DNA of 36,124 bases, from IMG/VR virus record IMGVR_UViG_3300042504_003174, positions 1 through 36,124 of that record; one strand, written 5' to 3'. The notes under the pieces were generated by a model. That model saw nothing but the letters and a program-made list of their open reading frames with translations, was not told the origin of the DNA and made no database searches. Position numbers and translations under genes: made by a program. Numbering within the stretch: position 1 is the first letter of the stretch; every line of letters starts with the position of its first letter. Source of the stretch: a virus. This document shows positions 457 through 22,080 of the stretch, one piece after another.

Positions 457-517
457 ATATTAAAAATAACGAAATAAATGTAGTAAACTATGCTTCTTGT
501 TCCACAGGTGAAACACG

Positions 518-1728: not shown

Positions 1729-1750
1729 GACAGGAGCCACTACTTGCGCA

Positions 1751-2266: not shown

Positions 2267-2278
2267 ATTGCGGCCATC

Positions 2279-3698: not shown

Positions 3699-3703
3699 GG
3701 TGG

Positions 3704-4924: not shown

Positions 4925-4966
4925 AAGAAAAGGAAAGCTGGCCTCATCTTACAAGGGTTTTAGACT

Positions 4967-5968
4967 ATGGCAGAAGCGGACTGTGGCATGCGCGTAGCGA
5001 TTATCGGAGCTGGATGGGTGGGATGCCACTTGGCTTGTCAACTCAGAGACGAACACCACATCACGCTGTTTGACCGCAAGCCCGAACCGTTTCACGGCGC
5101 TTCGCTGATCAACCAAAATCGGCTTCACCTTGGCTATCACTACGCAAGGAATGCAGCCACTCGTTCGTTGTGCAGATTCACTTTCGATCGTTTCATGCAC
5201 GAATATGGAAGTCTCACTTACACGGTGGAGAATAATTTGTATGCGGTGCCAGAAGATGAAAGCTTGCTAGACGCGGGAACCGTCAGAAGCATCTTCCCTC
5301 CATTGATCTTTCAATATGAAGAAATTGAAACTGACTTTCTTCGCGACACTTCCATGGTTTGGCGCACTCAAGAGCGTTACATTTCCCCCGTCGAAGCCAA
5401 ACAGTTCTTCTCAGGGCAATTGTCTCCAGTGTTCCAGCAAGAGCAAATTACCAGGGAAGACATTAAGCGGCTGAAGCAAGATTTTCATTTGGTGATTGAT
5501 TGCACGAATAATGCGCTGCTAAAGCCATCAAGCAATGAATACTTTGAGGCAGTGGCAATGTTTCTCTATGACATTCAAAAACCTTTGCCTTTTGGTGCGC
5601 TCACTTATATTGACGGACCATTGTTCTCTTTCTATCCGTTCCACGATGGCACTATGTCCCTGAGCCATGTGGTGCATAGCGTTGCCGCCGATTCAGTGTT
5701 GCCCATTGAGGAAGAGCCACCAATGGAAAAGCTAGAACAATTAAGACACAAGGCAGAGCTTCATGCTCGCTCGTACTGGCCAGATTTCTTGGACCATCTT
5801 TCTCGTCATAGCATTGTGCTGTCAATGAAAAGCAAACGAACCAATGCCAGTGCATATCGAGCCCCGCTGTTCAAACAGCAGGACAATCTTCTATCTTGCT
5901 ATACAGGCAAGATTCAGGGCATCTACTTGATCGAGGAAAAGGTGCGCGAAATATTGGAGGGCTTGTAA
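4967..5968 (+). CDS. FAD-dependent oxidoreductase (DAO-like)
   Basis: This 333-residue protein has an N-terminal dinucleotide-binding fold, MRVAIIGAGWVGCHLACQL, with GxGxxG near residues 13-18 and an acidic residue ending strand two (LFDRK). A GASLINQNRLHLGYHY segment fits the FAD-contacting region of DAO/amine-oxidase-like enzymes found in surface-glycan loci. The internal ATG at 4988 gives a start closer to the Rossmann strand and is equally plausible. It lies opposite to the glycosyltransferases and overlaps the isomerase gene tail to tail by 46 bp. It may oxidise a sugar or sugar-linked substrate; the substrate is unknown. Confidence 0.7.
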   Translation: MAEADCGMRVAIIGAGWVGCHLACQLRDEHHITLFDRKPEPFHGASLINQNRLHLGYHYARNAATRSLCRFTFDRFMHEYGSLTYTVENNLYAVPEDESLLDAGTVRSIFPPLIFQYEEIETDFLRDTSMVWRTQERYISPVEAKQFFSGQLSPVFQQEQITREDIKRLKQDFHLVIDCTNNALLKPSSNEYFEAVAMFLYDIQKPLPFGALTYIDGPLFSFYPFHDGTMSLSHVVHSVAADSVLPIEEEPPMEKLEQLRHKAELHARSYWPDFLDHLSRHSIVLSMKSKRTNASAYRAPLFKQQDNLLSCYTGKIQGIYLIEEKVREILEGL

Positions 5969-6666
5969 AGATGAGCGAAATAATGGTACTCACCTGGATA
6001 ATTCTTTGCCTTTAACAGCTCGCGAATGACTGCCCCCTCGTATTCGGCATTGCGCAACGCTTCAGCAAAGCGCTCATGCTTTTCCTGGGAGACAATGGGG
6101 CCAATATTTTGATCGCTAATGTGAACATGCTTGATGTAGGGAAAGTATTGAACAAGCACATCTTCGGGCCATTGACTCTCTAGCCACACGCTATTAGTGT
6201 CGATCATTGTTGCAGTGTGGGACAATGAGTATTCCACAAGGCTTTGCACAATTTCTTCGACTGTGAAGAAATATTCGCCACCATAGGGCTTGGCTACGGG
6301 CTCAATACAAACAGTGCAATCGAGAGCGGCAAGGGCATCATTCACCCTTGCAAGCGCGTCCATCAAATAACGCCTGTCGCCTTTGCGCAGTCCTGGGCTT
6401 CCAAGCACCATTCTCTTCCATCCGTATTCATGCGCCATTGCCACTAAATTGGCTAAGCATGAATCCAGCGCCTGCTCGTCCCAGAAGGCGTCAATGTCCA
6501 TGCCATAGAACAATGATTGTGCCGAATATTTTTGCAAGTAGCCGGAAAAGCGACTGTGCCTCTTGAAAGGCACTGCTTCCAACAGCTCGACACCATCGGG
6601 AAGATGCAGGACAATTTCTGTATGGTCTTCGGCTTCCCAGCCAATTGCACTAACCCCGAGCTTCAT
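5923..6666 (-). CDS. sugar phosphate isomerase/epimerase-like TIM barrel
   Basis: The 247-residue product (ATG 6666, MKLGVSAIGWE) has the layout of the xylose-isomerase-like TIM-barrel superfamily: an early strand KLGVSAIG, a CIEPVAKPYGGEYFFT segment with the metal-binding Glu, then MIDTNSVW and a strand ending HVHISDQN, where Asp and His usually complete the metal site. It overlaps the upstream SDR gene by 17 nt, implying coupled translation and a shared pathway. It probably interconverts a sugar or sugar phosphate for the neighbouring transferases; specificity cannot be told. Confidence 0.65.
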   Translation of the reverse strand: MKLGVSAIGWEAEDHTEIVLHLPDGVELLEAVPFKRHSRFSGYLQKYSAQSLFYGMDIDAFWDEQALDSCLANLVAMAHEYGWKRMVLGSPGLRKGDRRYLMDALARVNDALAALDCTVCIEPVAKPYGGEYFFTVEEIVQSLVEYSLSHTATMIDTNSVWLESQWPEDVLVQYFPYIKHVHISDQNIGPIVSQEKHERFAEALRNAEYEGAVIRELLKAKNYPGEYHYFAHLYKPSNISRTFSSIK

Positions 6667-7402
6667 TAATAAATGCCTCCATTTCATCCATTACTTCCTC
6701 CTTGGAAAGCCAATAACCGCTTTTCGTTGCCATGGTGCGATAATCGTAAGAGATGCGCTCACCTGAAGAGATTTCAGCATTGGGGAAAAACTTGTCAATG
6801 ATTTCCAGGGTTTCAATGGGAGGCGGAAATAAATTGATCACTTCATTGCCTTTTACTTCTTGAATGTCTTGCCACAGTCGCTTGAGCGGATACCACTGAT
6901 AGGCCGAGTTGCCATTGATTTGATCGACATTGTGATCATTCAGCAAATCAAACAAGATATTCTTTTTGATAAGCGGATGGAAGACGGCTGGCAGTCGCAC
7001 GATACAAGTATCAAAGCCAAGCGTGTCTTGGACAAGTGTTTCAAACAAAAGCCTGTTAGAGCCGTAGCTCAATGGTCCAAAATGCGTCCAACAACTTTCA
7101 TTGCCTCCGCAATCGTCGGGCTGATAAATGTCAATGGTGGAAATAAGAATTACTTTCGTTGCCCATACCTCTGTTAGAACATCGACAATAGAGAGAATAT
7201 TGTTGAAGTCTTTTACTGGATCTTTATTGACCAACCATTTTGTTGCAGGCAGGCAAGCAAGGTACAGTTCGTCCACTTGCCCTGGCATATTGGCAATCTC
7301 CGGCAACTCATGAATGTTGCTGGAATTAAAGGTGGCGTCGAAGTTGGCGGATTGCTGCAGAACGCTACCAATCAGACCAGTGTCTCCTACGAGAACTTTC
7401 AT
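6650..7402 (-). CDS. NAD-dependent epimerase/dehydratase-like SDR
   Basis: The 250-residue protein (ATG 7402) starts MKVLVGDTGLIGSVL, a Rossmann GxxGxxG loop typical of extended SDR enzymes. Further features are LISTIDIYQP, corresponding to the catalytic Ser/Thr strand, and YGSNRLLFE, corresponding to the YxxxK motif but with Arg in place of Lys. The protein is shorter than usual extended SDRs (about 310 residues). Neighbouring glycosyltransferases suggest a nucleotide-sugar substrate. The YxxxR change may lower activity or mark a non-catalytic role. The frame is open upstream but overlaps the minor head gene. Confidence 0.7.
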   Translation of the reverse strand: MKVLVGDTGLIGSVLQQSANFDATFNSSNIHELPEIANMPGQVDELYLACLPATKWLVNKDPVKDFNNILSIVDVLTEVWATKVILISTIDIYQPDDCGGNESCWTHFGPLSYGSNRLLFETLVQDTLGFDTCIVRLPAVFHPLIKKNILFDLLNDHNVDQINGNSAYQWYPLKRLWQDIQEVKGNEVINLFPPPIETLEIIDKFFPNAEISSGERISYDYRTMATKSGYWLSKEEVMDEMEAFINEARG

Positions 7403-7422
7403 GGGCTTGAAACTTTGCCCTA

Positions 7423-8100
7423 CTATACTGGCACCGCTTGCGGTTGCTGCCTGAAGTAGCGCACAGAACAGCGGCACCTAGCGCCGCATTCACAACGCTG
7501 TCCCGGCAGTGGCACGCTTCCAATGGGGACAACGCCACGAGCGGCATAGCGCAAGCAATCTTCGCAGTGCTTGGCTTGCTCGTCCAAGATGCGCCGCATT
7601 AAGGAATAGCCTTGTTCTTGCTGTCTGATTTCGGCTCCCAACCAGTAACTGCCACGAACGCTTTGAGCGTATAGGCCAATGCGAGCCAAAGCCATGGGAG
7701 CAGAAACGCGACCGCCAAGCAAATCGGAGGCAAAATTCGCAAGAAAATCATATTCCAAGCGAAGCCTTTGACCCACGCGACCATATTCTGCACTGCCCAT
7801 ACCAGCTTTGCCTCCATGGCCAATAATTGCTGCTTGAATGTGGGCGGCTTTAATAGCTTCTCGCACGCTTCCTTGCCACTGGTCAAGAGTGATTGATCCA
7901 TTGCTGAGCATGCGCGTGAAACGCTTAAGCGAAGCTTCCAGCTTATCAATGCGTCCGTCGACAAGCTTTTGCACAGAAGCTTGGCTCAGGAATTTGCCAC
8001 GTTCGTCCCGATAGCGTCCAGTGTTACGGTCGTAAGACCATGCAGCGTCCATTCTGCTAGACAACACTGCTTCTGCAAATGCGCTGAGGTCATTCAGCAT
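7423..8100 (-). CDS. minor head protein (SPP1 gp7 / Mu gpF-like)
   Basis: The 225-residue product starts at ATG 8100, inside the last codons of the portal gene (11-nt overlap). Its C-terminus shows the Cys-rich pattern of phage head morphogenesis proteins: AKHCEDCLRYAARG, then PLPGQRCECGARCRC. The centre is helical and basic, with WQGSVREAIKAAHIQAAIIG. Proteins of this family attach to the portal and act in DNA injection or head assembly. Order portal then minor head protein is conserved in many phages. The SDR gene that follows begins the inserted glycan block. Confidence 0.75.
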   Translation of the reverse strand: MLNDLSAFAEAVLSSRMDAAWSYDRNTGRYRDERGKFLSQASVQKLVDGRIDKLEASLKRFTRMLSNGSITLDQWQGSVREAIKAAHIQAAIIGHGGKAGMGSAEYGRVGQRLRLEYDFLANFASDLLGGRVSAPMALARIGLYAQSVRGSYWLGAEIRQQEQGYSLMRRILDEQAKHCEDCLRYAARGVVPIGSVPLPGQRCECGARCRCSVRYFRQQPQAVPV

Positions 8101-10165
8101 TGTCGGCTTCCAGGATTTCCTTGAACTTGACAGGAGCTTCCTCCTTCCATTCACTCAAAGCCTTGTCAATGTCAGCCTCCGTAATAAAAGCTTCCTCGTC
8201 AATGTTGCCAAGGATCATGCCTTCTACTTTCATGGGCTCAATGGCATCGACTTTGCTACTGACCATCTTCGCCGGCCCTTTGCGTTCTGGATCGGGATCA
8301 GCTTTGCGCTTGCGAGCAACAATGGTTTGGCGCTCTTCTTTGCTCATGGCTTGAGCCTTCGCTTGAGGGAGGCACTTAGGCTTTCCTTCTTTCTCTTCAC
8401 GAGCACCGCATGGTCCCATGATTTCGCCATTGGCCCCAATTCTCACCCATTTTTCCTTAAACCACTTATCAAGATCATCGGCATAAATTTCTTGACCATC
8501 ACCCTTGAAAGCGCCGCTCATTGAACCGTGCTTTTCTTTGTACATGCGCTTGTACTGCTGCACCACATAGCCACTGGCATAAGCTGATGGCCACACTTTG
8601 AATTTGCTTTTGGCCGCTGCCACAGCTTGACTATGCAGCTCTTTGTCGGTAAAAGTAACATCTCCGCGTCGATGCTCGAGATCCCGAGGCAAGTACAAGC
8701 CGGCAGCATCTTCCACTTCTCGACTTCCGTCCATGGGAAGAGTGCCGTTTTGCTCGTCAAGGGGATCGCGACCACCAGGAGGCACTTTCATGCCACCCCT
8801 TTCTTGAGTGGAACCACCCCCTCCAGGGGCAGGAAGTTCCCGCACCACGGACGGATCGAGAGTGAGTTCCATTGACCACTCAGAGCCGCCGTAACGAGCG
8901 TCAGCCACTTCCTTGGGACTCAGTACTCCCAGTTGGATGTAACGCCCGTCAACGGCTGCCACGCGGGCTCTTACGTCGGCCTTCTCGCGCTCGTTCAGCT
9001 CGAACAAGTCGTTGAAATGAATGCGCCATGACTCAGGCATGCGCCCATTTGTGGGACCAGTGCGGCTGAGCATGATTAGCTCCATCAGCTTCTTGAGAGG
9101 GCGATGGAAAGTGGATTGCTGGTAGTCTGCAAGCGTCTTGGCGAAATCACGCTCTTCGCTTCTGCCGGTGGAACCAAGGCCGCTGGGGCTTTCGCCAAAC
9201 AGCACTGTATGAGGAATCTTGGAGGCTCCAATGATGTCCACACGCATCTTCTCGAGAATTTCTCCCACGCCTCCAAAGTTTCTGCTGATAAAAGCAAGCT
9301 CTTCTTTTTCTGCGTCAATGGCGTAGCCGCGATAAACGCTCTTGCTCATATCATTTAGTACGAGACGATCACGCACGTCTTTTTCTTTCCCAGCAGCCAG
9401 CATTTGAGCCAAGCCCTTAATCTTGTGAACGAAAATGTCAAACTCACACAACAGCGTGGCCGAGGCATTTAGGCCAGTCCAGTAGTGCTTAAAGCTTTCG
9501 TAGACAGTTTGCAAACTGCTCATTCCCCATCCATAGTTCCTTTGCCTAATGCGATAGGGAAGCCAGTCACCGTCAAAACGCAAAATCCTATCTTTATGGA
9601 TGTAGGTGAGTTGTGGCTGGCGAATGAGGTCGCCTGAAATGATTTGATAATATGTTGCCTTGGAGTAGTCGTATAGATTTTCTTCGTTAATCACTGGTGC
9701 AATTTGCCAGCGGTCAAGCACTTCCATGCCTTCAACGGTATAAATGCGGCTCTTGTCTACTGGCTGATCCGCTGGACGCCCATCGTCGATGTAGAGCAGG
9801 ATGACGGACCCCCCATAGAGCCGAGCATTCTTGGAAGCCAGCATGAAATTCTCGAGGATGTGCAGATCCTCAATAGTTTGTTCAATGCCCACCACCTCCT
9901 CGGCAGCGGCACCCTCGCCACCAAACAGCACTTTGAAGCCTTTGCGGGTGGCCTGCTCGGCATAAATGTCTACAATGCGGCGTGGAAGCCATTCGCCGTA
10001 CAGAGCTTCCAGCTCTTCTTGAGCCAAGAAGACGATGGGCTGGGCAGTGGTTTGCAGGCTTTTGTCACGGCCTTTAATGCCCATGCCCGTGAGCGCATTG
10101 GCAAGGCCGTCCGCTCGCAGACCAGCTTCGTTCGCATGGCCAAGATCTACTGCTTCTTCCGACAT
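8090..10165 (-). CDS. portal protein (DUF1073-like) with C-terminal DUF5872-like extension
   Basis: This 691-residue protein (ATG 10165) has a portal core over about residues 30-450: EWLPRRIVDIYAEQATRKGF, NARLYGGSVILLYIDDG, HKDRILRFDGDWLPYRIRQR and HTVLFGESPSGLGSTGRSEE are typical of the DUF1073 portal group. The last 200 residues are a separate module: VWPSAYASGYVVQQYKRMYK, then DDLDKWFKEKWVRIGANGE, PCGAREEKEGKPKCLP and KQ-like SKEERQTIVARKRKADP. That module resembles DUF6321/DUF5872 domains often seen as separate small phage proteins. A portal ring forms the DNA channel at one head vertex. The weak -10 CATAAT lies just upstream. Confidence 0.8.
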   Translation of the reverse strand: MSEEAVDLGHANEAGLRADGLANALTGMGIKGRDKSLQTTAQPIVFLAQEELEALYGEWLPRRIVDIYAEQATRKGFKVLFGGEGAAAEEVVGIEQTIEDLHILENFMLASKNARLYGGSVILLYIDDGRPADQPVDKSRIYTVEGMEVLDRWQIAPVINEENLYDYSKATYYQIISGDLIRQPQLTYIHKDRILRFDGDWLPYRIRQRNYGWGMSSLQTVYESFKHYWTGLNASATLLCEFDIFVHKIKGLAQMLAAGKEKDVRDRLVLNDMSKSVYRGYAIDAEKEELAFISRNFGGVGEILEKMRVDIIGASKIPHTVLFGESPSGLGSTGRSEERDFAKTLADYQQSTFHRPLKKLMELIMLSRTGPTNGRMPESWRIHFNDLFELNEREKADVRARVAAVDGRYIQLGVLSPKEVADARYGGSEWSMELTLDPSVVRELPAPGGGGSTQERGGMKVPPGGRDPLDEQNGTLPMDGSREVEDAAGLYLPRDLEHRRGDVTFTDKELHSQAVAAAKSKFKVWPSAYASGYVVQQYKRMYKEKHGSMSGAFKGDGQEIYADDLDKWFKEKWVRIGANGEIMGPCGAREEKEGKPKCLPQAKAQAMSKEERQTIVARKRKADPDPERKGPAKMVSSKVDAIEPMKVEGMILGNIDEEAFITEADIDKALSEWKEEAPVKFKEILEADNAE

Positions 10166-10181
10166 TGTTCACATTATGGGC

Positions 10182-10209
10182 TTGCTTCCATTCTAAAGAT
10201 GTGTATGAT
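10182..10209 (+). promoter_or_regulatory. promoter for the nuclease-terminase operon
   Basis: TTGCTT at 10182-10187 and TATGAT at 10204-10209 are separated by 16 bp. The predicted start near 10216 lies 15 nt before the ATG at 10231. It lies in the divergent region between portal and nuclease genes, so head genes and terminase genes are transcribed away from each other. Confidence 0.5.
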
Positions 10210-10230
10210 GGCCATGACGTGCGTCTTGCT

Positions 10231-10725
10231 ATGCCCACTCCCATTGAATTTGTCTTTTCCGAAGAGGAACGAAAGCAGGCAATGGAGGAAGGAAAGCGGA
10301 GGCAGTCCGTGAATGAAGCAAAAGGGCTTCGTGGTCGTAATCGTGGCGCCGCTCGTGGCGACAAAGCCTTGGAAATCCACTTGCTTGGCGCAGCGGGCGA
10401 AATGGCCGTGGGTTCCTACTTGGGGCTCAAGCATTTGCTTTACAAAGAAAGCGAAGCCAAGCGGGGCTCAGATGATCTGCCCGGCATGGATGTGAAAACG
10501 CGTTCAAAACATGCTTACGATTTAATTGTGCAAAAAAATGAAGATTCCAGTAAAAAATTTGTTCTAGTGACCATAGAATGTCAAAAAACATTCATTCATG
10601 GCTGGTGCTATGGCCATGAAGCAATGCAAGGGCAATACTGGGCGGATCCCGCCCGTGGACGCCCAGCGTTTTTCGTGCCACAATCAGCACTAAGGACAAT
10701 GGAGAGCTTGAATGAGCAAGAATGA
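10231..10725 (+). CDS. putative PD-(D/E)XK-like nuclease
   Basis: The 164-residue protein from ATG 10231 (chosen because a promoter precedes it; the frame extends to TTG 10165) contains HLLGAAGEMAVGSYLGL, then GSDDLPGMDVKTRSKHAYDL. The spacing Glu ... Asp-Asp ... D-V-K-T-R is like the catalytic core of restriction-endonuclease-fold nucleases. A conserved-looking aromatic segment GWCYGHEAMQGQYW and FFVPQSALR follow. It ends within the start of the GIY-YIG gene (14-nt overlap). It could be a packaging-linked or DNA-repair nuclease; fold assignment is by motif only. Confidence 0.45.
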   Translation: MPTPIEFVFSEEERKQAMEEGKRRQSVNEAKGLRGRNRGAARGDKALEIHLLGAAGEMAVGSYLGLKHLLYKESEAKRGSDDLPGMDVKTRSKHAYDLIVQKNEDSSKKFVLVTIECQKTFIHGWCYGHEAMQGQYWADPARGRPAFFVPQSALRTMESLNEQE

Positions 10726-11458
10726 GCGGCGATTTTATATCTACGCTTTTCTCAGAAGCGTGGACTCTCAGCACGGCAAGAAAGGAAGCCCATATTACAT
10801 CGGCAAGGGAAGCGGGAAAAGAGCGTGGTCTAAAAACAGAAGAATACAGCTTCCAGTTGATAGAAGCAAAATTGTATTTTTACGCACTCAGTTAACAGAG
10901 CAAGAGGCTTTTGACTGGGAATGTATCTACATTGCGCATTATGGGCGTATTGATTTAGGCACAGGAATTCTTCGCAATCAAAGCAATGGGGGCGAGGGCG
11001 CATCTGGAATGATTCACTCAGAAGAGGCTCGCCTCAAAATTTCCAAGGCGAACAAGGGAAAAATTGTGAGTATGGAGACCAAGGAGAAAATTCGCAAACA
11101 ACGCCAAAAAGAGGGCCGCTGGAAAGGGCATCTTAATCCCACCGCTGGCGGCGACTTAATACGAGGAGAAAGGAATCCCATGTGGGGCAAAAATCATTCT
11201 CCCGAGGCGAGGTCTAAAATCTCCGAGAAACAACGCGCCTATCGCGCCACATCTAAGGGCAGGGCCATGAGCAAATTAAAAAGCCAAAAATATCTTTACG
11301 AACTTATCGACCCAAACGGTGAAGTGTACATGACGGAAAACTTATTTGATTTTTCTAAGCAATACAAGCTAACAAATTCATGCTTGGACAGGGTAGTGAA
11401 TGGAAGTGCTAAACAACATAAAGGTTGGACGGGGCGAATTGTCCAGCAGTTGCAATGA
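10712..11458 (+). CDS. GIY-YIG homing endonuclease with NUMOD3 repeats
   Basis: The 248-residue protein has an N-terminal GIY-YIG-type domain: FYIYAFLRSV, then SPYYIGKGSGKRAW, and a downstream Glu region EAFDWECIYIAHYG. The middle holds two NUMOD3-like DNA-binding repeats, HSEEARLKISKANKGK and HSPEARSKISEKQRA. The C-terminal LYELIDPNGEVYMTENL segment resembles NUMOD-type helix-turn-helix modules. Its stop overlaps the terminase start in ATGA, so it is fused transcriptionally and translationally to that gene. It is probably a free-standing homing endonuclease targeting a terminase allele. Confidence 0.8.
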   Translation: MSKNERRFYIYAFLRSVDSQHGKKGSPYYIGKGSGKRAWSKNRRIQLPVDRSKIVFLRTQLTEQEAFDWECIYIAHYGRIDLGTGILRNQSNGGEGASGMIHSEEARLKISKANKGKIVSMETKEKIRKQRQKEGRWKGHLNPTAGGDLIRGERNPMWGKNHSPEARSKISEKQRAYRATSKGRAMSKLKSQKYLYELIDPNGEVYMTENLFDFSKQYKLTNSCLDRVVNGSAKQHKGWTGRIVQQLQ

Positions 11459-12834
11459 CTCAACTTCGCTGTTCGGAATTCGCAGAGCACGCACTTGGCG
11501 TGGAGCTATGGCCCAAGCAACAAGAAATCCTCAATAATCTATTTGAAAAAAATATCAATCATGCTATCTGGGCGCTCGGCAGGCGTAGTGGGAAAACTTT
11601 TTGTGCGGCAGTTGCAGCACTGTACATGTGTTTCGCCCAAGATGAGTATTTTACGCGCAAGGTAAGAAAGGGTGAAAAATGGTATGTTATTGCCGTAGCT
11701 AATGACCTCGGCCAGTCTAAAATTGCCCTTGACAATATACGCCAACTAATTCTTAATAGCCCATTTGAGCAAGAAATAATAAGGGAAACAAGCTTGGAAA
11801 TTGAGATCAAAAATGGTTGTGTTTTCCAGGCTATTCCTGCATCGGCTCGCGCATCTCGTGGCAAAGCAGTTGTAGCCTTGATCCAAGATGAGCTGGCATT
11901 TTCTATAGAAGGAGACGCAAATAGAGGTGCAGAAGCAATGTACACGGCACTCGCGCCTTCCATTGCTCAGTTTGGCAAACACGGAAAAATTATCGAGCTT
12001 TCTTCACCTTATCTTACGTCAGGTGTCTTTTTTGACCATTTCAAGCAAGCGCAAAGTGGTGAGTTTCCAGGTATGCAAGCCCTGCAAATTCCTACTTGGG
12101 AAATTAACCCGTCGCTTCCCTTTGATTGCGACTTTCTTACTAGAGCAAGAAAGAAAGATGAAGAGACTTTTTATGTAGAATTTGGCGCTCAATTTAGAGC
12201 CAACAACTCAGTGCTGCTTGCCCCTGAAGTGGTGGATATTGCCGTCAACAAAGATCGATCTGTCTTGCCTCCCAAAAGAGAGCTTATGGGCACCTACTTT
12301 CTTTCTCTAGACCCTGCGCGTGGTGGCGTGGGCAGAGATGAATACATTGCCTGCATCATCCACTACGAAGGGCAGCGATTAATCCTGGACAAGCTACATA
12401 CGTTCGAAGCTGATTTTGAAATTGGCGGAAAGAAGGAAGTAAGCATCGCGAAGGTGGAGGAATGGATTAAGGAGCACCATCGCCTTTACGAATTTCAGAG
12501 CATTACGCTTGACCAATTTAATAGCTCCGCCATCATTCAAGACCTATCAAAAGACTTTCCAATTTCAGAGCTCGCTTGGTCGGTCTCGACAAAAATGAAG
12601 GCATTCAGCAAGGTTCGAGAATTGTTTAACGCGGGATTGATTGAACTCTACCCGCATAAGAAACTTATTTGGCAGCTTAAAAACCTCAGCGTGCTGTATC
12701 GAGCAAGTGGTCAATGGGCCGTAACTGGTGGTAAAGAATCAGGCGTTGACGATTATTGCTTTGCGCTTGCGGCAGCAGTGCTTGATGCTTCCAAGGACGA
12801 TAATATCGATTGGATCAATAGCTTAGTCCGTTAA
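11455..12834 (+). CDS. terL: large terminase subunit
   Basis: The 459-residue protein (ATG 11455) has an N-terminal ATPase with Walker A GRRSGKT at residues 42-48 and a Walker B region VALIQDE ending in D145-E146. The C-terminal RNase H-like nuclease shows the first metal-binding Asp in YFLSLDPARGG (D286), a second in SITLDQFNSS and a third in GVDDYCFALAAAV. It packages DNA into the prohead through the portal ring. The putative small subunit lies 16 kb away (28594-29343), which is unusual. The GIY-YIG gene overlaps its start by 4 nt. Confidence 0.9.
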   Translation: MTQLRCSEFAEHALGVELWPKQQEILNNLFEKNINHAIWALGRRSGKTFCAAVAALYMCFAQDEYFTRKVRKGEKWYVIAVANDLGQSKIALDNIRQLILNSPFEQEIIRETSLEIEIKNGCVFQAIPASARASRGKAVVALIQDELAFSIEGDANRGAEAMYTALAPSIAQFGKHGKIIELSSPYLTSGVFFDHFKQAQSGEFPGMQALQIPTWEINPSLPFDCDFLTRARKKDEETFYVEFGAQFRANNSVLLAPEVVDIAVNKDRSVLPPKRELMGTYFLSLDPARGGVGRDEYIACIIHYEGQRLILDKLHTFEADFEIGGKKEVSIAKVEEWIKEHHRLYEFQSITLDQFNSSAIIQDLSKDFPISELAWSVSTKMKAFSKVRELFNAGLIELYPHKKLIWQLKNLSVLYRASGQWAVTGGKESGVDDYCFALAAAVLDASKDDNIDWINSLVR

Positions 12835-12883
12835 TTGCCTTTAGAATTTTCACCAATCACACTGTTTTCACTGTTGTTGAAAA

Positions 12884-13060
12884 ATGATTGGCGTTGAACT
12901 TTCCAGCAAGGAACTGGCTTTTATCCTTGCCCTGCTTGAAGCCGACAGGCAAACGGCTTTGCAGCTTCTTGCGGCAGAACACGCCTATAAGCCTACGCTT
13001 TTGCCCAAACTTAGGGAAGCCGAGAAAGTGGTGAAAGCAATGAAAAACTTGCAAGGCTAA
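12884..13060 (+). CDS. hypothetical small helical protein
   Basis: This 58-residue protein begins MIGVELSSKELAFILALLEA and ends with a lysine-rich helix KVVKAMKNLQG. Predicted structure is two or three amphipathic helices without Cys or membrane segment. It follows terL by 49 bp in the same direction. No family recognised; codon use and absence of a longer frame on the other strand support it being real. Confidence 0.55.
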   Translation: MIGVELSSKELAFILALLEADRQTALQLLAAEHAYKPTLLPKLREAEKVVKAMKNLQG

Positions 13061-13086
13061 ACTAATGACAACCCTCCTTCTTCTCC

Positions 13087-13263
13087 ATGGCCCTGTTACG
13101 CGCTGCGGAAGAAGCCTGGGAGTTCGCCATGGAAGCCTCTAGAGCCGTTGAAGAGAGCGGCAGGCTATATGGCCCCAATAGCGAAGAAGCGAGGCTTGCA
13201 AGGGCAGCAATGAGGCAATGGGAAGAGGAATACAGGGAACTCACCGCTGCAACTGCTGATTGA
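13087..13263 (+). CDS. hypothetical small helical protein
   Basis: This 58-residue protein is rich in Ala, Glu and Arg (MALLRAAEEAWEFAMEASRA, then RLARAAMRQWEEEYREL) and should form a charged helical hairpin. It lies 26 bp after the preceding small gene and is probably in the terminase transcript. No function is suggested by sequence. The 112 bp that follow, up to 13375, hold nothing recognisable except a possible 16-codon frame from 13290. Confidence 0.5.
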   Translation: MALLRAAEEAWEFAMEASRAVEESGRLYGPNSEEARLARAAMRQWEEEYRELTAATAD

Positions 13264-13375
13264 TCGTGGTACGTTTGTTCTTTTCTCGCCATGGAAAGCG
13301 GGAAACATGGGAAGTGCCATTCCACGAAGCTCGGCATGTAAATAGGCGATTGTTCCTAGAAGGAGCCGCCGTGTA

Positions 13376-13621
13376 TTGGACGGAAGTCTGCTAAGCTTTG
13401 CAAGCTTCCTGCAGGAGCCCACTAGGCGCCTAGTGGTATTCATACCAAGGGAGGGCTCAGGCTCTCCCCGCTCCAACATCCTCGTCACTGTTGGCTTTGG
13501 GGATTCCGTGAGTGAGTTGAAGCACTCACAACAAGGCAGAGCATGGGCCGCACCCATTGATTCCCTAATGCGGGAAAACTCTGCCTCACCCTTCTTCTTT
13601 TTTCTTCACCCAGTTTTTTAG
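13376..13621 (+). CDS. hypothetical protein with TTG start
   Basis: The 81-residue frame starts at TTG 13376, 10 nt after an AGGAG. It contains EPTRRLVVFIPREGSGSP then NILVTVGFGDSVSELKHSQQ, a strand-loop-strand pattern with a GFGDSV turn that looks like a real folded protein. The C-terminal tail FFFFLHPVF overlaps the convergent gene at 13586. The family is not recognised. The weak start codon makes the 5' end uncertain. Confidence 0.4.
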   Translation: MDGSLLSFASFLQEPTRRLVVFIPREGSGSPRSNILVTVGFGDSVSELKHSQQGRAWAAPIDSLMRENSASPFFFFLHPVF

Positions 13622-13786
13622 TTCTCTCACATAGCTTCGCAAGCTTTCCGCTTTTTCCAAGTGCCAAGGATCATGATCCTCGAAATAGCGGGAATTGTGC
13701 CAATCAATGGCTTGAAGAAGACGATGGATGATGGGATTGAGAGGCTCACGCAACGGCGTGTTAAAAGTTCGCCGCTCCTCGGACAT
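13586..13786 (-). CDS. hypothetical small charged protein
   Basis: This 66-residue protein (ATG 13786) has a helical, charged C-terminus (HLEKAESLRSYVRELKNWVK). Its start lies inside the 3' end of the metallophosphoesterase gene (26-nt overlap), so it is probably co-translated with it. It contains NPIIHRLLQAIDWHNSRYFE with several His and aromatic residues. No family recognised. Confidence 0.5.
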   Translation of the reverse strand: MSEERRTFNTPLREPLNPIIHRLLQAIDWHNSRYFEDHDPWHLEKAESLRSYVRELKNWVKKKEEG

Positions 13787-14321
13787 TGGTGCGGAAGTGA
13801 TCGACGATCAAATCCAATGCTACAGGAGTGAAATCGTTCCTCTCAACGCAGGCATTGAAAAATCGTTGATCAACTTGCCCATCTTTTATCACTAGATGGC
13901 AGTGAAGGTGTCCGTGAACATTACCTAGATAGTGCCCACGAAGATTGTCGGGATGCACTGGAATGTGCGTGAAAATAAGACCACCTGGCAATGCCTTGCC
14001 TGCATGGTGAAACATGGCCCCGCGAATGTCTTCAAAATACTCGGCGTAGTCTTTGAGCTTGAACGTGTCGTGATTGCCGCGAATAAGAATCTTTCTCCCA
14101 TTGCATCTGGCTAAGTTTTTTAGCCCACTACGCGGAATTGCTACGTCGCCAAGATGGTAAACAGTGTCCTTGTCCTTGACCACTGCATTCCACCGCTCCA
14201 CCATTGTCTCATCCATCTCTTCGCACGAAGAAAAAGGACGCAATGGGGAGCCATCGGGCTGGACAAAAGACAAGCTTTTGGCGTGTCCCCAGTGGCTATC
14301 TCCAATAACGAAGGCGCTCAT
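13761..14321 (-). CDS. calcineurin-like metallophosphoesterase
   Basis: The 186-residue protein (ATG 14321) shows the full metallophosphoesterase signature: D8-x-H10 in GDSHWGH, GD at 58-59 (YHLGDVA), GNHD at 82-85, THIPVH around 118-123 and GHLH at 137-140. These residues bind two metals and hydrolyse phosphomono- or diesters. Small phage enzymes of this type have been linked to nucleotide or RNA end processing, but the substrate here is unknown. The start at MSAFVIGD is preferred because upstream frame sequence overlaps the tRNA-like element. Confidence 0.85.
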   Translation of the reverse strand: MSAFVIGDSHWGHAKSLSFVQPDGSPLRPFSSCEEMDETMVERWNAVVKDKDTVYHLGDVAIPRSGLKNLARCNGRKILIRGNHDTFKLKDYAEYFEDIRGAMFHHAGKALPGGLIFTHIPVHPDNLRGHYLGNVHGHLHCHLVIKDGQVDQRFFNACVERNDFTPVALDLIVDHFRTNVRGAANF

Positions 14322-14336
14322 AGGGATTAACGAAAA

Positions 14337-14404
14337 GGGCGCTGCCGGGAATCGAACCCAGTATTCCATGCTATCTGCATGACGTGTGCCAACACTTCAG
14401 GGCC
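14337..14404 (-). tRNA. degenerate or minimal tRNA-like element
   Basis: A T-arm is clear: CTGGG TTCGATT CCCGG. Reading back, a 4-nt variable loop, an anticodon arm TCATG-CAGATAG-CATGG, a D-arm GTGT-TGGC-ACAC with only a 4-nt loop, and an acceptor GGCCCTG pairing with CAGCGCC (one C-C mismatch) complete a cloverleaf of 67 nt plus discriminator. The formal anticodon is GAT (Ile), but position 33 is A instead of the near-invariant U and the D-loop is too short for a normal tRNA. No CCA is encoded. It may be a decaying tRNA, a tRNA mimic, or an integration-type site. Confidence 0.45.
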
Positions 14405-14418
14405 AGTGACCCCCAAAT

Positions 14419-14610
14419 TTAAGCATTGTTAAGAGGCTTAGGGGGAGGACTGCAGGAGGCGATCAACTCTCCCGGCCTGCAAGCAGGACTTAGTTTACAA
14501 ACGCAACGACCAGAAATTTCCAGTCCGTGCGCTGCTTGACAATCGTAGCAAGAGATGGGCCAAGCGTGAACAGCCGCAAGCGGCTCAAACAGGGGCTTGG
14601 CCTCTGTCAC
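14419..14610 (-). CDS. hypothetical Cys-rich small protein
   Basis: This 63-residue frame starts at GTG 14610. It has a CYDC pair, then CVC and two later Cys (SPACRPGEL, IASC), a pattern that could bind zinc. It lies between nrdB and the tRNA-like element. There is no recognised family and the start codon is weak, so the gene is tentative. Confidence 0.35.
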   Translation of the reverse strand: MTEAKPLFEPLAAVHAWPISCYDCQAAHGLEISGRCVCKLSPACRPGELIASCSPPPKPLNNA

Positions 14611-14646
14611 AGACTACTGTAGAGCAGATAAGTCGGAAAAGCCCAC

Positions 14647-15372
14647 TCAACCATAGGACGGTAAATTCAGCGCATTCGTTTCAAAAAACGCTGGCACTGT
14701 ACTGGCACGAGTTTCTTGCAATTCTGGGGCTTTACCGCTGAGAAAAAGGCTATCACTTTGGCGAAGCCAAAAATCTTTGTCCAAGTATTTATTGGACGAA
14801 GAATCAAGCTTATCGTAAATCCACAGCGCCGTCATTTTTCTGAGCTTGTTCAGACTGCTGCTGTATTCCTCCCCAGACTCCTCCGCAATCTTGGTATTGC
14901 AAAACGAGTGGCATATTTCATCGCGAGAAATGTCACTAGCAACAGTCCTCAACCCTTTGTCGCCATTGAAACGAAAGAACGGCAAAATTGTAAAAAACAA
15001 ACTGCGTTCAATTGTTGCCACCTTGAGAATTGGATGGGCTGGATGGTCGATCCATGCTTGGCGAATCCGAAAAGCTTCTTTTTCCGATTGCTCATTTGTG
15101 CCATGAGCAGCAGCAACGTAATTGAGAGCTTCGTCATGACGCTCTTCGTCGGCCATATTGCTATGAATGGATTCAATAAGCCCAGGACTGTTAGGAAGTT
15201 CCCGCTCTAGGCCCTCGAGAAGCATGTCCTTCACAGGCAGTTCAAGGTGACGAATGGCAAGGGCGCGGAAAATCGTTTCCTCGGAGCCTTCCACAAAATC
15301 ACCTTTAGTAACAGGCACTGCTTGCCAAGGACGCTTGCGGGCAACTGCAGAAAAATAATCAAGAACTGCCAT
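14647..15372 (-). CDS. nrdB: ribonucleotide reductase class I beta subunit, radical Tyr absent
   Basis: The 241-residue protein (ATG 15372) is a ferritin-like beta subunit. Probable metal ligands, from start MAVLDYFS, are E44 (IRHLE), E76 and H79 (ADEERHD), E122 (ATIERS), and E152 and H155 (RDEICH), spaced as in NrdB. The residue four after the first His, which carries the stable tyrosyl radical in class Ia enzymes, is Leu83. This suggests a different radical or metal chemistry, as reported for a cyanophage class I clade. At 241 residues it is shorter than E. coli NrdB (about 375). It follows nrdA after a 77-bp gap with a terminator-like hairpin. Confidence 0.75.
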   Translation of the reverse strand: MAVLDYFSAVARKRPWQAVPVTKGDFVEGSEETIFRALAIRHLELPVKDMLLEGLERELPNSPGLIESIHSNMADEERHDEALNYVAAAHGTNEQSEKEAFRIRQAWIDHPAHPILKVATIERSLFFTILPFFRFNGDKGLRTVASDISRDEICHSFCNTKIAEESGEEYSSSLNKLRKMTALWIYDKLDSSSNKYLDKDFWLRQSDSLFLSGKAPELQETRASTVPAFFETNALNLPSYG

Positions 15373-15403
15373 GTGAAAAGAAGCAATGGTAAAAAACAAA
15401 GGA

Positions 15404-15431
15404 CGACAAACAAGGGCAGCTACTGCTGCCC
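15404..15431 (-). terminator. hairpin between nrdA and nrdB
   Basis: On the minus strand GGGCAGC, loop AGTA, GCTGCCC (15431-15414) is followed by TTGTTTGTC. It lies after the nrdA stop and before the nrdB start and may attenuate nrdB expression rather than end the transcript fully. Confidence 0.5.
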
Positions 15432-15449
15432 CATTGTCTTAAACGTGGC

Positions 15450-16880
15450 TCACTCTGCGCAGGCGCTACAGAAGCCAGCTTCCAAAGAACAAGCCTCAGG
15501 CTCGTCCAAGCTAAAGAAGTCGGCCAGACTCTCTCCCAAGTCTACTCCAACATCGTCCTTTGCTTGTGTGCCTGATTGCACTTGCAGCGCATAGTAAATA
15601 GACGATTGAGGACTGGCAAGCCATTCGCGAAGAAAAGCTTCATCACAAACGGTCATATCAGACCACCAGTTCATGGAATAGCCATGGAAAAGACCAGTGC
15701 GGCGCATCAGCTCAACAATGCCATCGGCTACTTTCTTAAATGCTTCCCAGCCCACTTGCTCTGCAATTTCCACTGGCCCATATTCAAATCTTTCCACACC
15801 CATCGTCTCGCTATCACGGTCAATAATTTGGTCAATGGGAGGAGCGATTTCAGGAGCAGTCGTAAAGCCTCTAGAGTCCAAATACCTATAAGAGCATGAA
15901 GCAGTGGGGGCAATGGTAAAGGCACGTTCCATGCCATGCTGCCTGGCAATGTCCGCAGCACCAAGCAAGCCCAATTGAATGGCGGCTACGGCGTCGCCAG
16001 CACGCTGATCAGTCCAATGATGGCACCAAGGATGAGGATCCTCATCAAGATAAGCTTCCAAAGCTTTGCCAAAATCTTCGTAGGAGATGTCATGAATGGA
16101 AAGGAAATTAGCTAAACCAAGAATGCCAAGCCCCACTTGCTTGTCAATGGAAGGCGAAAGGTATTCGCCAGTGTCGCCCACGCCAGTGGAAGGATGAAGC
16201 TCACACAGTTGCTTCATGCCATCCTTGAAAGCTTGCTCTACATCATTGATGCCACAAGCACCGAGATTGACATGCTGTAAAAGGCAAGTGCCACGATGAG
16301 GAAGATAAATCTCGAGGCAGACATTTCCACGCAAGCGTTCTCCTCTTTCGTTATAGCGAATCTTATTGAGCCAAATATCTCCGCTGGAAATGCCTTGGCA
16401 TAATGCTTTGATAAATTCAGGCGAAGATTTATCAAGAAATTGCTCATCCACATCAATGCAGCGCTTTGCCCATGGAAATTCTGATCGCGGAGCAGTGATC
16501 AAATCAATGGCATCGGGATGGTCGTAGTCAAGATGTAAAACAACAGCGCCATTTTTGTACTTGCCACCACGACGCAGAATTTCATTGAGCGTGGAATAGA
16601 TTTTGCCAAAGCTGAGTGGACCACTCGCAACAAGCCCTTTGCCATTTTCTTGGCCTTTGGGACGCAAGTTGGAAAGATGCACTGCCACGCCAGCGCCATT
16701 ACGAAGGCCATGGGAAACAAAGCGCCACGATTGCTCAATGCCATCTGGCCCTTCCATTGAATCTTCCACGACGAACACCGTGCAACTCACGGCCAAGCGC
16801 CCCTCAGGATCATTTAACCAGCTCTCCACTCGTCCAGTTCGAGCAATCTTTTCGCACTTTGCGCTTTCTTTGAGCTTCAT
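15450..16880 (-). CDS. nrdA: ribonucleotide reductase class I alpha subunit
   Basis: The 476-residue protein (ATG 16880) lacks an ATP-cone. Catalytic features are visible: active-site Cys in RLAVSCTVF (C33), N186-V-C188-L-E190 (the N-x-C-x-E motif), the partner Cys in TCLLQHVNLG (C199), IAPTASCSYRY, the radical-path pair Y429-Y430 in SSIYYALQVQSG, and C-terminal redox cysteines GFCSACAE. The YY pair marks it as class I rather than class II. It makes deoxynucleotides for phage DNA. The frame extends upstream to GTG 16919, but those residues are encoded by a terminator hairpin and are unlikely to be translated. Confidence 0.85.
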   Translation of the reverse strand: MKLKESAKCEKIARTGRVESWLNDPEGRLAVSCTVFVVEDSMEGPDGIEQSWRFVSHGLRNGAGVAVHLSNLRPKGQENGKGLVASGPLSFGKIYSTLNEILRRGGKYKNGAVVLHLDYDHPDAIDLITAPRSEFPWAKRCIDVDEQFLDKSSPEFIKALCQGISSGDIWLNKIRYNERGERLRGNVCLEIYLPHRGTCLLQHVNLGACGINDVEQAFKDGMKQLCELHPSTGVGDTGEYLSPSIDKQVGLGILGLANFLSIHDISYEDFGKALEAYLDEDPHPWCHHWTDQRAGDAVAAIQLGLLGAADIARQHGMERAFTIAPTASCSYRYLDSRGFTTAPEIAPPIDQIIDRDSETMGVERFEYGPVEIAEQVGWEAFKKVADGIVELMRRTGLFHGYSMNWWSDMTVCDEAFLREWLASPQSSIYYALQVQSGTQAKDDVGVDLGESLADFFSLDEPEACSLEAGFCSACAE

Positions 16881-18988: not shown

Positions 18989-19165
18989 GATGGTTGTTAA
19001 CGCTGCAAGGAAGGTCGCCTCGCGAAGAAAGCCCTCAAGGCGATTGTTTCAAGCGACCTTCCTCCTGGCCCTCTCGAAAAGCTTTCATAAGCTCCCTTCG
19101 CAGAGGCCCGATACGCGCAGAAGCCCCCAAGGCGATTGTTCCAAGGGCCTCTTCTAACAACCATC
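18989..19165 (+). ncRNA. multibranch structured element with two homologous stem-loops
   Basis: An 11-bp outer helix (GATGGTTGTTA 18989-18999 with TAACAACCATC 19155-19165) encloses two related stem-loops and a small hairpin (19080-19093). Stem-loop A pairs 19008-19018 with 19053-19063 (11 bp); stem-loop B pairs 19102-19109 with 19145-19152 (8 bp). Their stems differ (GGTCGC/GCGACC against GGCCC/GGGCC) yet both close the same core: GAA(A)-GCC, loop CYCAA, GGC, bulge GATTG, (T)TTC, then CAA. Stem changes that preserve pairing around a conserved loop and bulge are the mark of a selected RNA or single-stranded DNA structure. Strand of transcription is not proven. Confidence 0.6.
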
Positions 19166-19267
19166 TCCTAAACGACTTTCTTCTTCTGCTTAAATGCTCG
19201 TAAATAGCCTCGAGCCGCTGAAAGTGTGCGCAGCAGCAATAGAAAAATGAAAATTAAGCAATAATTT

Positions 19268-19456: not shown

Positions 19457-19673
19457 GGTGTAAATATTGGGCAGAAAAAGTCGTTTGAAAATATCCCGTC
19501 ATCAATTTTGGGATACCCCGCACCCCCGTAAAACTTTTTGCCGTGCTACTGCGCTGCAGCCAATCTACCACCAATCCGTCGCCAATTCTGTAGCCGTTGA
19601 TACCATTTTATGGTTTGCAATAATTAAGAACGCTGATCAACCGATAAAATTAAAGATTCTCCCTCCTTCGCAT

Positions 19674-19704
19674 GAGAAAGGCCTCCCCATATGAAGGAGA
19701 GGCC
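19674..19704 (-). terminator. intrinsic terminator of the island operon
   Basis: Minus-strand GGCCTCTCC, a 7-nt loop and GGGGAGGCC (19704-19680) form a 9-bp stem with one G-U pair, followed by TTTCTC. It lies 26 bp after the last gene of the GP88 operon and is itself written in the island's AG/CT-rich style. Confidence 0.6.
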
Positions 19705-19730
19705 TCGGAACAGGACCAGCCTGAGAGCTC

Positions 19731-19919
19731 TCAGGAGCCTCGCAGGAGGCGCGCGCGAGCTTCTCGAGAGGAGGAGAAGGGGAGGCGAGGAGAGGAGCGC
19801 TCGAGCCTTTCGAGAAGGCCTTCGAGAAGCTCCTCCTCGAGCATGCTCTCAGGCTCGAAAGCTTCGAGAGCGAGGAGAAGGAGAAGGAGCTCGAGCGAGG
19901 AGAAGGAGGAGGAGCTCAT
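19731..19919 (-). CDS. 62-aa low-complexity protein, third gene of island operon
   Basis: The start ATG overlaps the GP88 stop codon in ATGA, indicating coupled translation. The protein uses only nine amino acids (M, S, F, L, E, A, P, G, R). It has a serine-rich N-terminus SSSSFSSLE, a leucine stretch LELLLLLLALEAF and an amphipathic acidic helix ESMLEEELLEGLLERLER, and ends with an Arg-rich tail. The whole gene contains no AC, GT or TA dinucleotide. It could be a small membrane or coiled-coil partner of the GP88 protein. No family is recognised. Confidence 0.5.
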   Translation of the reverse strand: MSSSSFSSLELLLLLLALEAFEPESMLEEELLEGLLERLERSSPRLPFSSSREARARLLRGS

Positions 19920-21031
19920 GAGCATTCCCCCAAGCCCGAGAAGCGCGCGAGGCCTCCTCCTGCGAGCTCCTGCCAGTCAGCATGCGGAGCGAGCGCGAAG
20001 GCCTTCGCGCTCTCAGGCTTCGAGCCTCTCGAGCGCTTAAGGCGAAGCAATACCGCGAGGCCTGAGAAGCCAGCTCGAGGCGCTCGATCGAGCATGCGCA
20101 GGTCGTTAAGGTCCCCATCGATGCAATCAAGGCGCGCAAGGCCTCCTCCGGGAGCCGTGAGCATGAGCTCACCAGGGAGAGGCTCGCCCTTTGCAAGCAA
20201 TATTGGTACGGCAATCGAGAAGCCATGCCTCGAGGCCTCGAGCGCGCGAAGTGCTCCCCCTGGTGCGTCAGCCGCAAGGCTCGCAGTGGTGTGAATTCCG
20301 GCTTCTCTCATGGCGAGGAGGCGCGCGAGAGGCGCCTTTGCGTAGTCATAAAGATGGACGCCTCGAGCATCGCGCAAGGCCTCGGGGATTGTGAGCCTAC
20401 CGGAAGGGATTGTGCTCCCATAAAGGCGAGAAAGGCCTCGAGCCTCCTCGGGAGAAAGGCGCGCGCTCATGCTCCGCTCATGCCATGGAAGTTCTTGTGT
20501 GCCATTCAGGCGCAAGGCGAAGGGGAGGCGAAGCTTGCGCGCCTTTCGCGCTGCGAGGCCTCCGGACCACAGGAGCGCCTTTATAAAGGCCTCTGAGTCC
20601 CATAGAAAGGCGAGCATTCTTCGAGCCCTGCAGGAGGCACAGTTGGTCGAGATCCCGCCATGGCCTGAGAAGGCGAGACACAGATCCCTGCAAGCATCGC
20701 TCGAGAAGGCGCAAGCGTTAAGCGCGAGCGCGCGCTCGAGGAGCCCGAAACGAATCGCGAGCTCGCGAAGGCCGGGGAGCTCGCTCCTTACGTTGCAAGC
20801 ATGCGAGTCCGGAGTGAGCGCGCGCGCGAGGCCTTTCGCGGGGAGCATATGAAGGAGCGAGGAGAAGGCGAGGCCTTCGCCTTTCGCGAGCTTCGCGTTC
20901 GCAGCTCCTGAAGTGAGAAGGCCGGGGATTGTCAGGCCAAACTGCGCGAGGTTCGAGGAGTGCTCGCGAGGAGAGCGAGGCGCCTTCGAGCGAACCGCAG
21001 GAGGAGCGAGGAGGAGAGAAGGAGAAGCCAT
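19916..21031 (-). CDS. GP88-family protein in restricted nucleotide code
   Basis: The 371-residue protein shows the GP88 family pattern in order: GLLTSGAANAKLAKGEG (about 37-53), CRDLCLAFSGHGG (114-126), ARRMLAFLWDSEAF (136-149), LRLNGTQELPWHE (173-185), GVHLYDYAK (224-232) and DGDLNDLRMLD (305-315). GP88 proteins occur in phages and plasmids and have no established function. Leu, Ala, Ser and Arg are strongly over-used, while Val is near 1 percent and Tyr and Thr are rare. Leu is nearly always CTC or CTT, Arg CGC, Glu GAG. It lies 33 bp after the 191-residue gene and overlaps the next. Family call rests on motif order. Confidence 0.7.
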   Translation of the reverse strand: MASPSLLLAPPAVRSKAPRSPREHSSNLAQFGLTIPGLLTSGAANAKLAKGEGLAFSSLLHMLPAKGLARALTPDSHACNVRSELPGLRELAIRFGLLERALALNACAFSSDACRDLCLAFSGHGGISTNCASCRARRMLAFLWDSEAFIKALLWSGGLAARKARKLRLPFALRLNGTQELPWHERSMSARLSPEEARGLSRLYGSTIPSGRLTIPEALRDARGVHLYDYAKAPLARLLAMREAGIHTTASLAADAPGGALRALEASRHGFSIAVPILLAKGEPLPGELMLTAPGGGLARLDCIDGDLNDLRMLDRAPRAGFSGLAVLLRLKRSRGSKPESAKAFALAPHADWQELAGGGLARFSGLGECS

Positions 21032-21064
21032 GGGAGAGAAGGAGAAAGGAGAAGGAGAAGGAGC

Positions 21065-21640
21065 TCAGCGAGCGAGGAGAGGCCAGCGCAGATCAGCCAT
21101 GAGCGCTTCGAGCTCCTCGAGGCTCTCCTCGAGCTGAGCCTGCAGAGCCTCTCGCCTGTCGGCGATTGTGCGGAGCTCTGCTGCGCGCTCGCGCAATTGC
21201 AAGGCTCCCATCTGCAGATCCTTCGCGCTTAAGCACAGGCGAGGCTCACGCTCGAGAGCTGAGAGAAAGGAGGCGGCTTCGAGCTCGAGCTCCTCCGCAT
21301 CGGCGCGCAAGGAGAAAGGCGAGGAGCGCTCCTCGAGGAGCGCGAGGTTCTTCTCGAGCATGAGCGCGAAGGCCTCCGCCTCCTCAAGCGAGGAGAAGGA
21401 GAGCACTGGCCATGAGAGCTCACCCGGGAGAACGGGCGAAGGCGAAAGGCGAGGCGCGCGAGGAGCGCGCTTCTCGCCCGGGAGGAGAGGAGAGGCCATG
21501 AGAGAGAAAGGCGAAGACCTCCCCATATAAAGGCCTCGAGCGCCTTTCGAGAAGGAGCGATCAGGAGCGCTCATAAGAGGAGCGCCTTTCGCCTCCTTTC
21601 GAGAAGCTACGCTGATCAGATAAGGAGAAAGGCCATGCAT
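21065..21640 (-). CDS. island protein with long acidic coiled-coil region
   Basis: The 191-residue protein (ATG 21640; internal ATGs at 21575 and 21530 are alternatives) starts with a Pro/Arg/Ser-rich region and then becomes a helical, Leu-Glu-Ala-rich segment: SSLEEAEAFALMLEKNLALL, then LRERAAELRTIADRREALQA and QLEESLEELEALMADL. The heptad-like spacing of Leu suggests a coiled coil. Val is almost absent. It is the first gene of the three-gene island operon and uses the same codons as its neighbours. No recognised family; perhaps a partner of the GP88 protein. Confidence 0.5.
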   Translation of the reverse strand: MHGLSPYLISVASRKEAKGAPLMSAPDRSFSKGARGLYMGRSSPFSLMASPLLPGEKRAPRAPRLSPSPVLPGELSWPVLSFSSLEEAEAFALMLEKNLALLEERSSPFSLRADAEELELEAASFLSALEREPRLCLSAKDLQMGALQLRERAAELRTIADRREALQAQLEESLEELEALMADLRWPLLAR

Positions 21641-21786
21641 CCCAGGAATGCCTCGATTGCCATAAGCCAGGCTGATCAGTCAGCGAAAGGAGCGCGAGCC
21701 TTTACCAGGAGAAAGGCGAAGCGCTCGATACCTGCAACATTCCGTCACACTGACCCATGCCAAACGAAACGCACGCACCGCGCATT

Positions 21787-21924
21787 AACGACACGCAACG
21801 ACGCCCAACGCGCAGAAACGGCACGCAACGACGCCCACAAGCCCCCACAAGCCCCCACAAGCCCCCACAAGCCCCCACAAGCACCAACGACGCCCAACGA
21901 CGCCCAACGACGCCCACAAGCCCG
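21787..21924. repeat. T-free AC-rich block with 10-bp tandem repeats
   Basis: The plus strand has no T for 138 nt. It holds four perfect tandem copies of GCCCCCACAA (21841-21880), copies of CGCCCAACGA in tandem (21891-21910) and two copies of ACGCAACGACGCCCA further left. On the minus strand the first array becomes GGGGG runs separated by CTTGT, a clear G-quadruplex motif that would be in the leader of the GP88 operon transcript if its promoter is to the right. The 10-bp unit length matches one turn of the DNA helix. Confidence 0.8.
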
Positions 21925-21934
21925 TCACAGCTCA

Positions 21935-22054
21935 GCGTGCGCGCGTGCGCGCGCGTGCGCGCGTGGGTGCGCGTGCGCGCGTGGGCGCGCGTGCGCGCGT
22001 GGGTGCGCGTGCGCGCGTGGGCGCGCGTGCGCGCGTGGGTGCGCGTGCGCGCGT
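21935..22054. repeat. A-free Z-DNA-prone 18-bp tandem repeats
   Basis: For 120 nt the plus strand has no A and is nearly pure alternating purine-pyrimidine. Five tandem 18-bp units GTGGGYGCGCGTGCGCGC run from 21963 to 22052, with T and C alternating at unit position 6 (T, C, T, C, T), so the higher-order period is 36 bp. Alternating GC/GT tracts of this kind favour left-handed Z-DNA under negative supercoiling. Confidence 0.8.
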
Positions 22055-22080
22055 ATAGGCGCGCAGCCGGGCCCGCGCGC

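Follow-up and report, generated by a model that had tools for sequence, protein, structure and literature searches.

The 36,124-nt stretch of viral DNA analysed here (the window) contains, at 19658-21727 on the minus strand, a cassette of GP88 and small genes written in a composition in which the dinucleotides AC, GT and TA are strongly depleted. This composition ends with the cassette, is intrinsic to the cassette lineage, acts at the level of nucleotides rather than of codons or protein, and covers non-coding DNA. Near-identical phage backbones carry different cargo at this one site, which identifies the block as an exchangeable phage cassette. We favor, with a probability of roughly 0.45, the reading that it is an accessory cassette, probably functioning early or in host takeover, whose nucleotide-level composition is kept by weak selection. 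The phage comes from a lineage of freshwater cyanophages that is related to Synechococcus phage S-CBS4, the relationship being apparent over the reductase region; the S-CBS4 stretches 1-14000 and 50000-69420 contain no restricted segment. The sharp boundaries of the segment, the swapping of the cassette, the other compositions found in sister phages and the non-coding extent of the bias all go beyond a preliminary description of this DNA.

Extent and nature of the restricted composition

The preliminary description had reported that AC, GT and TA do not occur in 19717-19975 (259 nt) and 20996-21157 (162 nt), and recounting gives 0, 0 and 0 in both, as against 36 expected from base composition (48 under uniform use) in the former and 21 in the latter. 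The maximal runs free of these steps span 19716-19976 (261 nt) and 20995-21158 (164 nt). When the segment is shuffled 2,000 times, such runs reach at most 79 nt, the longest per shuffle averaging 39 nt, which, together with the same bias in related loci, rejects chance as an explanation. Over the whole of 19674-21640, the extent originally proposed, the three steps are rare rather than absent (AC 23 against 124 expected, GT 34 against 100, TA 22 against 64), and within the GP88 gene they number 60 against 165; the notion of a restricted alphabet thus holds in the strict sense for the two stretches and as a depletion elsewhere. Markov/Viterbi segmentation with two states, for which related loci provided the training data, corrects the extent itself to 19658-21727 (score 312.9) and recovers this as the sole segment of such composition in the window. 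About 230 nt of the biased DNA is non-coding, namely the 5' part of the cassette at 21500-21727 on the minus strand (228 nt), where the three steps total 11 against 37.5 expected. The coding strands of the cassette are C-rich and A-poor, and the near equality of the observed/expected ratios of AC and GT (0.32 and 0.28) indicates that the avoidance is strand-symmetric. Misassembly is very unlikely, given that contigs from many metagenomes agree.

Close relatives of the GP88 gene were recovered from 28 viral loci (including a few near-duplicates) at 60-82% identity, with the length of the protein kept and few indels. All 28 show strong depletion of AC, GT and TA, in answer to whether related phages share the alphabet, and their GC content is 0.58-0.66 as against about 0.5 in the flanks. 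Each contig has one main restricted segment, and wherever enough sequence is available the loci share a single syntenic position upstream of the ribonucleotide reductase gene. Past the terminator in L011, a small convergent ORF (7763-7915, minus strand) is mildly restricted (segment 7771-7956), and weak restricted segments likewise follow the cassette in L008, L021 and L025.

Genes of the cassette and the GP88 protein

Three minus-strand ORFs make up the operon, as had been proposed, though the start originally assigned to the first of them, 21640, is most likely to be replaced by 21499. The homologue in L005 (5163-5597) begins at the equivalent Met, which supports a protein of 144 aa (21065-21499) rather than of 191 aa, the longer reading being without support. 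This gene is under purifying selection (dN 0.23, dS 0.78, omega 0.29); its product is 71% Leu, Ala, Ser, Arg and Glu, and a family search with it gave no match. The third gene (19731-19925, 64 aa) is entirely devoid of the three steps (0 against 26.6 expected) and has a homologue in L003 (1330-1521); it is short, and at a dN/dS of 0.50 its coding support is weak. On the opposite strand, an ORF at 19672-20040, with no family match above the cut-off, looks like a by-product of the scarcity of TA.

The central gene (19916-21031, minus strand) encodes a true GP88 protein of 371 aa under purifying selection. It matches PF17338 above the cut-off (E 2e-6; 28.3 bits against 24.4) and phrog_1617 at E 5e-20, with an omega of 0.21 against L003 and of 0.08-0.27 between relatives, in line with the earlier view that this is real coding DNA and not random low complexity. 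The reported avoidance of Val, Thr and Tyr is equally evident, these residues comprising 1.3, 2.7 and 0.8% of the protein. A core that is invariant across subfamilies consists of three Cys and the motifs R-L-x-G-T, Y-x-Y-x-K and D-G-D-x-x-D-x-R; the 371-aa protein has this core of the ordinary-composition members of the family (Gene product 88), sharing Cys107, Cys114 and Cys118 along with RLNGT, YDYxK and DGDxxDxR with the GP88 of the sister phage L043, which matches PF17338 at E 1e-23. GP88 members of Pelagibacter, Xanthomonas, Mycobacterium and Mesorhizobium phages are, unlike that of the window, without the AC/GT/TA bias.

An AlphaFold model of the protein is alpha/beta and fairly confident (pTM 0.82). 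No PDB entry matched at E<=1e-3 by sequence or by fold, and the viral matches are other GP88 proteins and a Gp37/Gp68-like protein. GP88 is probably a cysteine-containing alpha/beta enzyme. The cysteines are spaced CX6CX3C in the window and CX5CX3C in L043, as opposed to the CX3CX2C motif of radical SAM proteins, and a radical SAM identity is only a lead. In T7-like phages, distantly related GP88 genes occupy the left end of the genome record. By analogy with this left, early position, and given the behavior of the locus as an accessory island, the cassette probably comprises early genes of host takeover or counter-defence.

Boundaries and exchange of the cassette

Upstream, the cassette is bounded by a conserved promoter-like element, AGTGTGACGGAATGTTGCAGG (21731-21751, minus strand), with the composition changing just 3' of it and the restricted stretch beginning within about 3 nt. 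Approximately 37 nt including the element are 92-97% conserved in four sister phages while the sequences on both sides differ. The element could be positioned close to the start of the segment in 18 aligned loci, and in all 18 the score is negative over the last 20 nt up to the element's end and positive over the 20 nt that follow; the element was located by its AT-rich pattern, which biases its own 20 nt toward a negative score, and of the 20-nt stretches directly upstream of these only 11% score positive. The element is suggestive of an RpaB/HLR1-like box, the HLR1 box being bound by RpaB in cyanobacteria (PMC9241938, which gives the box definition). The candidate resemblance lies in roughly two GTTACA-like direct repeats 10 bp apart, upstream of an operon, but the window element differs from the box by several mismatches. 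At the 3' end of the cassette, a terminator scan detected an intrinsic terminator, AGGCCTCTCC..GGGGAGGCCT TTCTC (19682-19708, minus strand), L003 having a related stem-loop in the equivalent position, and in many loci the segment ends at or shortly past such a terminator-like stem-loop.

A search with the reductase uncovered phages that are 99-100% identical in this protein and carry other genes at the GP88 locus. Against these phages the flanks are mostly 92-98% identical, and homology is lost at about 19644-21730 of the window (W 14395-16481 in coding-strand coordinates), so that the breakpoints of the cassette and the change in composition lie no more than about 15 nt apart. The cargo of L043, at the same site and behind the same element, includes a GP88 of ordinary composition, and that of L044 and L059 a GP88 with a different bias (TC 0.47-0.68, CG 0.45-0.51). 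More distant relatives have DUF7227 or DUF7178 genes at the locus, and in L066 the bias is kept in the small genes while GP88 is replaced by a DUF7227 gene of ordinary composition. Since cargo of other composition occupies this site downstream of the same element, the bias belongs to the cassette and not to the site, the promoter or the phage. Furthermore, L008 and L011 are similar in GP88 (dN 0.06) and divergent in the reductase (dN 0.32), which implies that the cassette moves horizontally. Exchangeable loci are familiar in tailed phages, for example in the early region of T7-like phages, and the present locus resembles such accessory or hypervariable loci in that near-identical backbones hold divergent or unrelated cargo between fixed flanking genes. 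It differs from them in that its cargo is recognizable by its own nucleotide vocabulary; we know of no described case of cargo marked in this manner, and a limited literature search found none.

Several further features were observed at these loci. In L044 (2532-4382), GP88 is fused to an Ala/Pro-rich N-terminal part within an ORF of 616 aa, which uses a GCC/CTG/CCC vocabulary low in TC and CG. The region 3960-6200 of L066 is a mosaic of CTC-vocabulary small genes, the ordinary DUF7227 gene, and then partly vocabulary-rich DNA. Non-coding short-repeat arrays precede each cassette. In the window a tandem repeat scan places the array at 21757-22060, upstream of the element, with the units CCCACAAGCC, CCAACGACGC and GCGTGCGCGCGTGGGCGC, and its sequence varies among sister phages, W 13866-14357 being without homology in L043 and L046. 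The others are at L018 3640-3860, L020 4190-4340 and L005 4570-5000, with further upstream arrays at L028 2570-2790, L054 4640-4880 and L067 5790-6110. The repeat unit is phage-specific (CCCACAAGCC, GATCATGATCAC, TTAACC, CGCTCCTCC, CTACTCGTTACC, ACATTTCTTA and GGGCATAT). Two to three copies of GGGACTtGCnnAAACGCGGTA-like repeats stand before the array in L011 (3300-3400), L066 (3530-3630) and L028 (2410-2510). Perfect or near-perfect palindromes, GAGAATCATTCTC, which resemble Fur-type operators, occur upstream of the cassettes in L011 (3430-3550), L020 (4350-4420) and L014 (upstream of 4365). Between the cassette and the reductase genes, window 18990-19200 contains repeated stem-loop-like units around CCAAGGCGATTGTTCCAAGGGCC that are conserved in sister phages, and a tRNA-Ile (GAT) gene lies at 14337-14404 on the minus strand.

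Maintenance of the bias and its possible causes

Between the window and L011, third bases at shared four-fold sites agree at 0.40 as against 0.36 for independent draws, which means that silent sites have turned over almost fully with the bias retained in both. Among the most similar pairs (dS about 0.2-0.4), substitutions affecting AC, GT or TA steps occur at about the context-free rate (ratios 1.03-1.11), and the ratio drops to 0.54-0.81 in the most divergent pairs that can still be aligned; in L020, L024 and L027, purging of amino-acid change is already apparent (omega 0.08-0.09). Steps found in one versus two of three relatives show patterns resembling those of the flanks, which are noisy controls as some align poorly, and this points to no clear net decay. 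Parsimony polarisation of four-fold changes was set aside, as it misreads rare states as gains. On the whole, we read the bias as a weak steady state, which weak selection fits best.

Under the favored reading, the GP88 gene and the small genes between the promoter-like element and the terminator, which are swapped as a unit among related freshwater cyanophages, would act early in infection, in host takeover or counter-defence. The composition of the cassette would be kept by weak selection acting on its nucleic acid itself, the AC, GT and TA steps perhaps being read by a hypothetical sequence-specific agent that the cassette meets and possibly itself encodes. The closest pairs, with no visible purging of AC/GT/TA changes, speak against this reading, as does L066, with biased small genes despite an ordinary DUF7227 gene in place of GP88.

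A donor replicon of extreme composition might instead load the cassette repeatedly into phages, where it would decay slowly to the phage composition. The coincidence of the breakpoints with the composition boundary, the horizontal movement of the cassette and the context-free rate of change in close pairs are all compatible with such a source. However, none was found in genomes, plasmids or phage records: close GP88 relatives are missing from 84,980 species genomes and from plasmids, the cassette GP88 occurs among viral contigs at this one locus only, and none of 79 other viral loci with a shared vocabulary 15-mer comes near the bias except another contig of the same island, the lowest value among the rest being 0.44 against 0.24. 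Gain and loss of the three steps also look balanced. Hence, of the transfer from an unusual replicon suggested earlier, the exchange among phages is borne out and the unusual replicon is not, and we regard this origin as possible but on balance unlikely.

The low-entropy vocabulary might also have a mutational origin, either in slippage and short-motif turnover ("cryptic simplicity") or in a self-caused mutation bias. Words are indeed enriched beyond the dinucleotide level, CTCGAG, previously put at about 20 copies, being counted 19 times against 4.7 expected from dinucleotides and six-base palindromes 124 times against 66 under a second-order model, and phage-specific short-repeat arrays lie upstream of the cassettes. 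This origin is nonetheless doubtful in view of the conserved length and scarce indels of GP88 at 60-82% identity, the single short tandem array within the cassette, and the ordinary sister cassettes at the same site and element. A mutator linked to the site or to transcription, one of the causes first considered, is ruled out by the ordinary GP88 cassettes found behind the same element in near-identical backbones.

It is improbable, though conceivable, that each cassette lineage is invisible to a sequence-specific activity that it encodes: GP88-A cassettes would avoid AC, GT and TA, and GP88-B cassettes (L044, L059) TC and CG, so that the activity would attack or modify host nucleic acid and leave the encoding operon untouched. 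Less probable still is ordinary restriction avoidance, i.e. evasion of a sequence-specific nuclease made by the host or by competing phages, another of the causes first considered. GTAC is composed of precisely the steps GT, TA and AC and is found once in the segment against 6.7 expected, but the flanks are also poor in it (37 against 131), ruling out GTAC avoidance as the cause. Restriction-site avoidance in phage genomes likewise produces regions with skewed short words, whereas six-base palindromes are here enriched rather than depleted (124 against 52 expected; flank 30 against 38), which contradicts escape from a palindrome-cutting enzyme. This enrichment is about two-fold in the branch of the window phage, with other branches near or modestly above expectation and the phage backbone showing mild palindrome depletion. 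Selection on codons, tRNA supply or amino-acid content, in spite of strong preferences (Leu CTC 0.71, Glu GAG 0.83) and proteins rich in Leu, Ala, Ser, Arg and Glu, is largely contradicted, as all three codon phases are depleted on both strands alike (lowest for AC over codon boundaries, 0.18), the three steps are fewer than after shuffling of the gene's own codons with the protein unchanged, CTCGAG appears in all three reading frames, 228 nt of non-coding DNA is biased, and a GP88 with ordinary codons serves sister phages.

The composition thus belongs to a block of genes, rather than to a phage, a site or a promoter, and persists through near-total silent turnover, which makes testable the general question of whether, and against what, selection at the nucleotide level can uphold a dialect in a mobile gene block. 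Sister phages, whose GP88 genes at this site are of ordinary composition or have another bias, provide a natural comparison set. As GP88 is a widespread phage family, the cargo is worth assaying.
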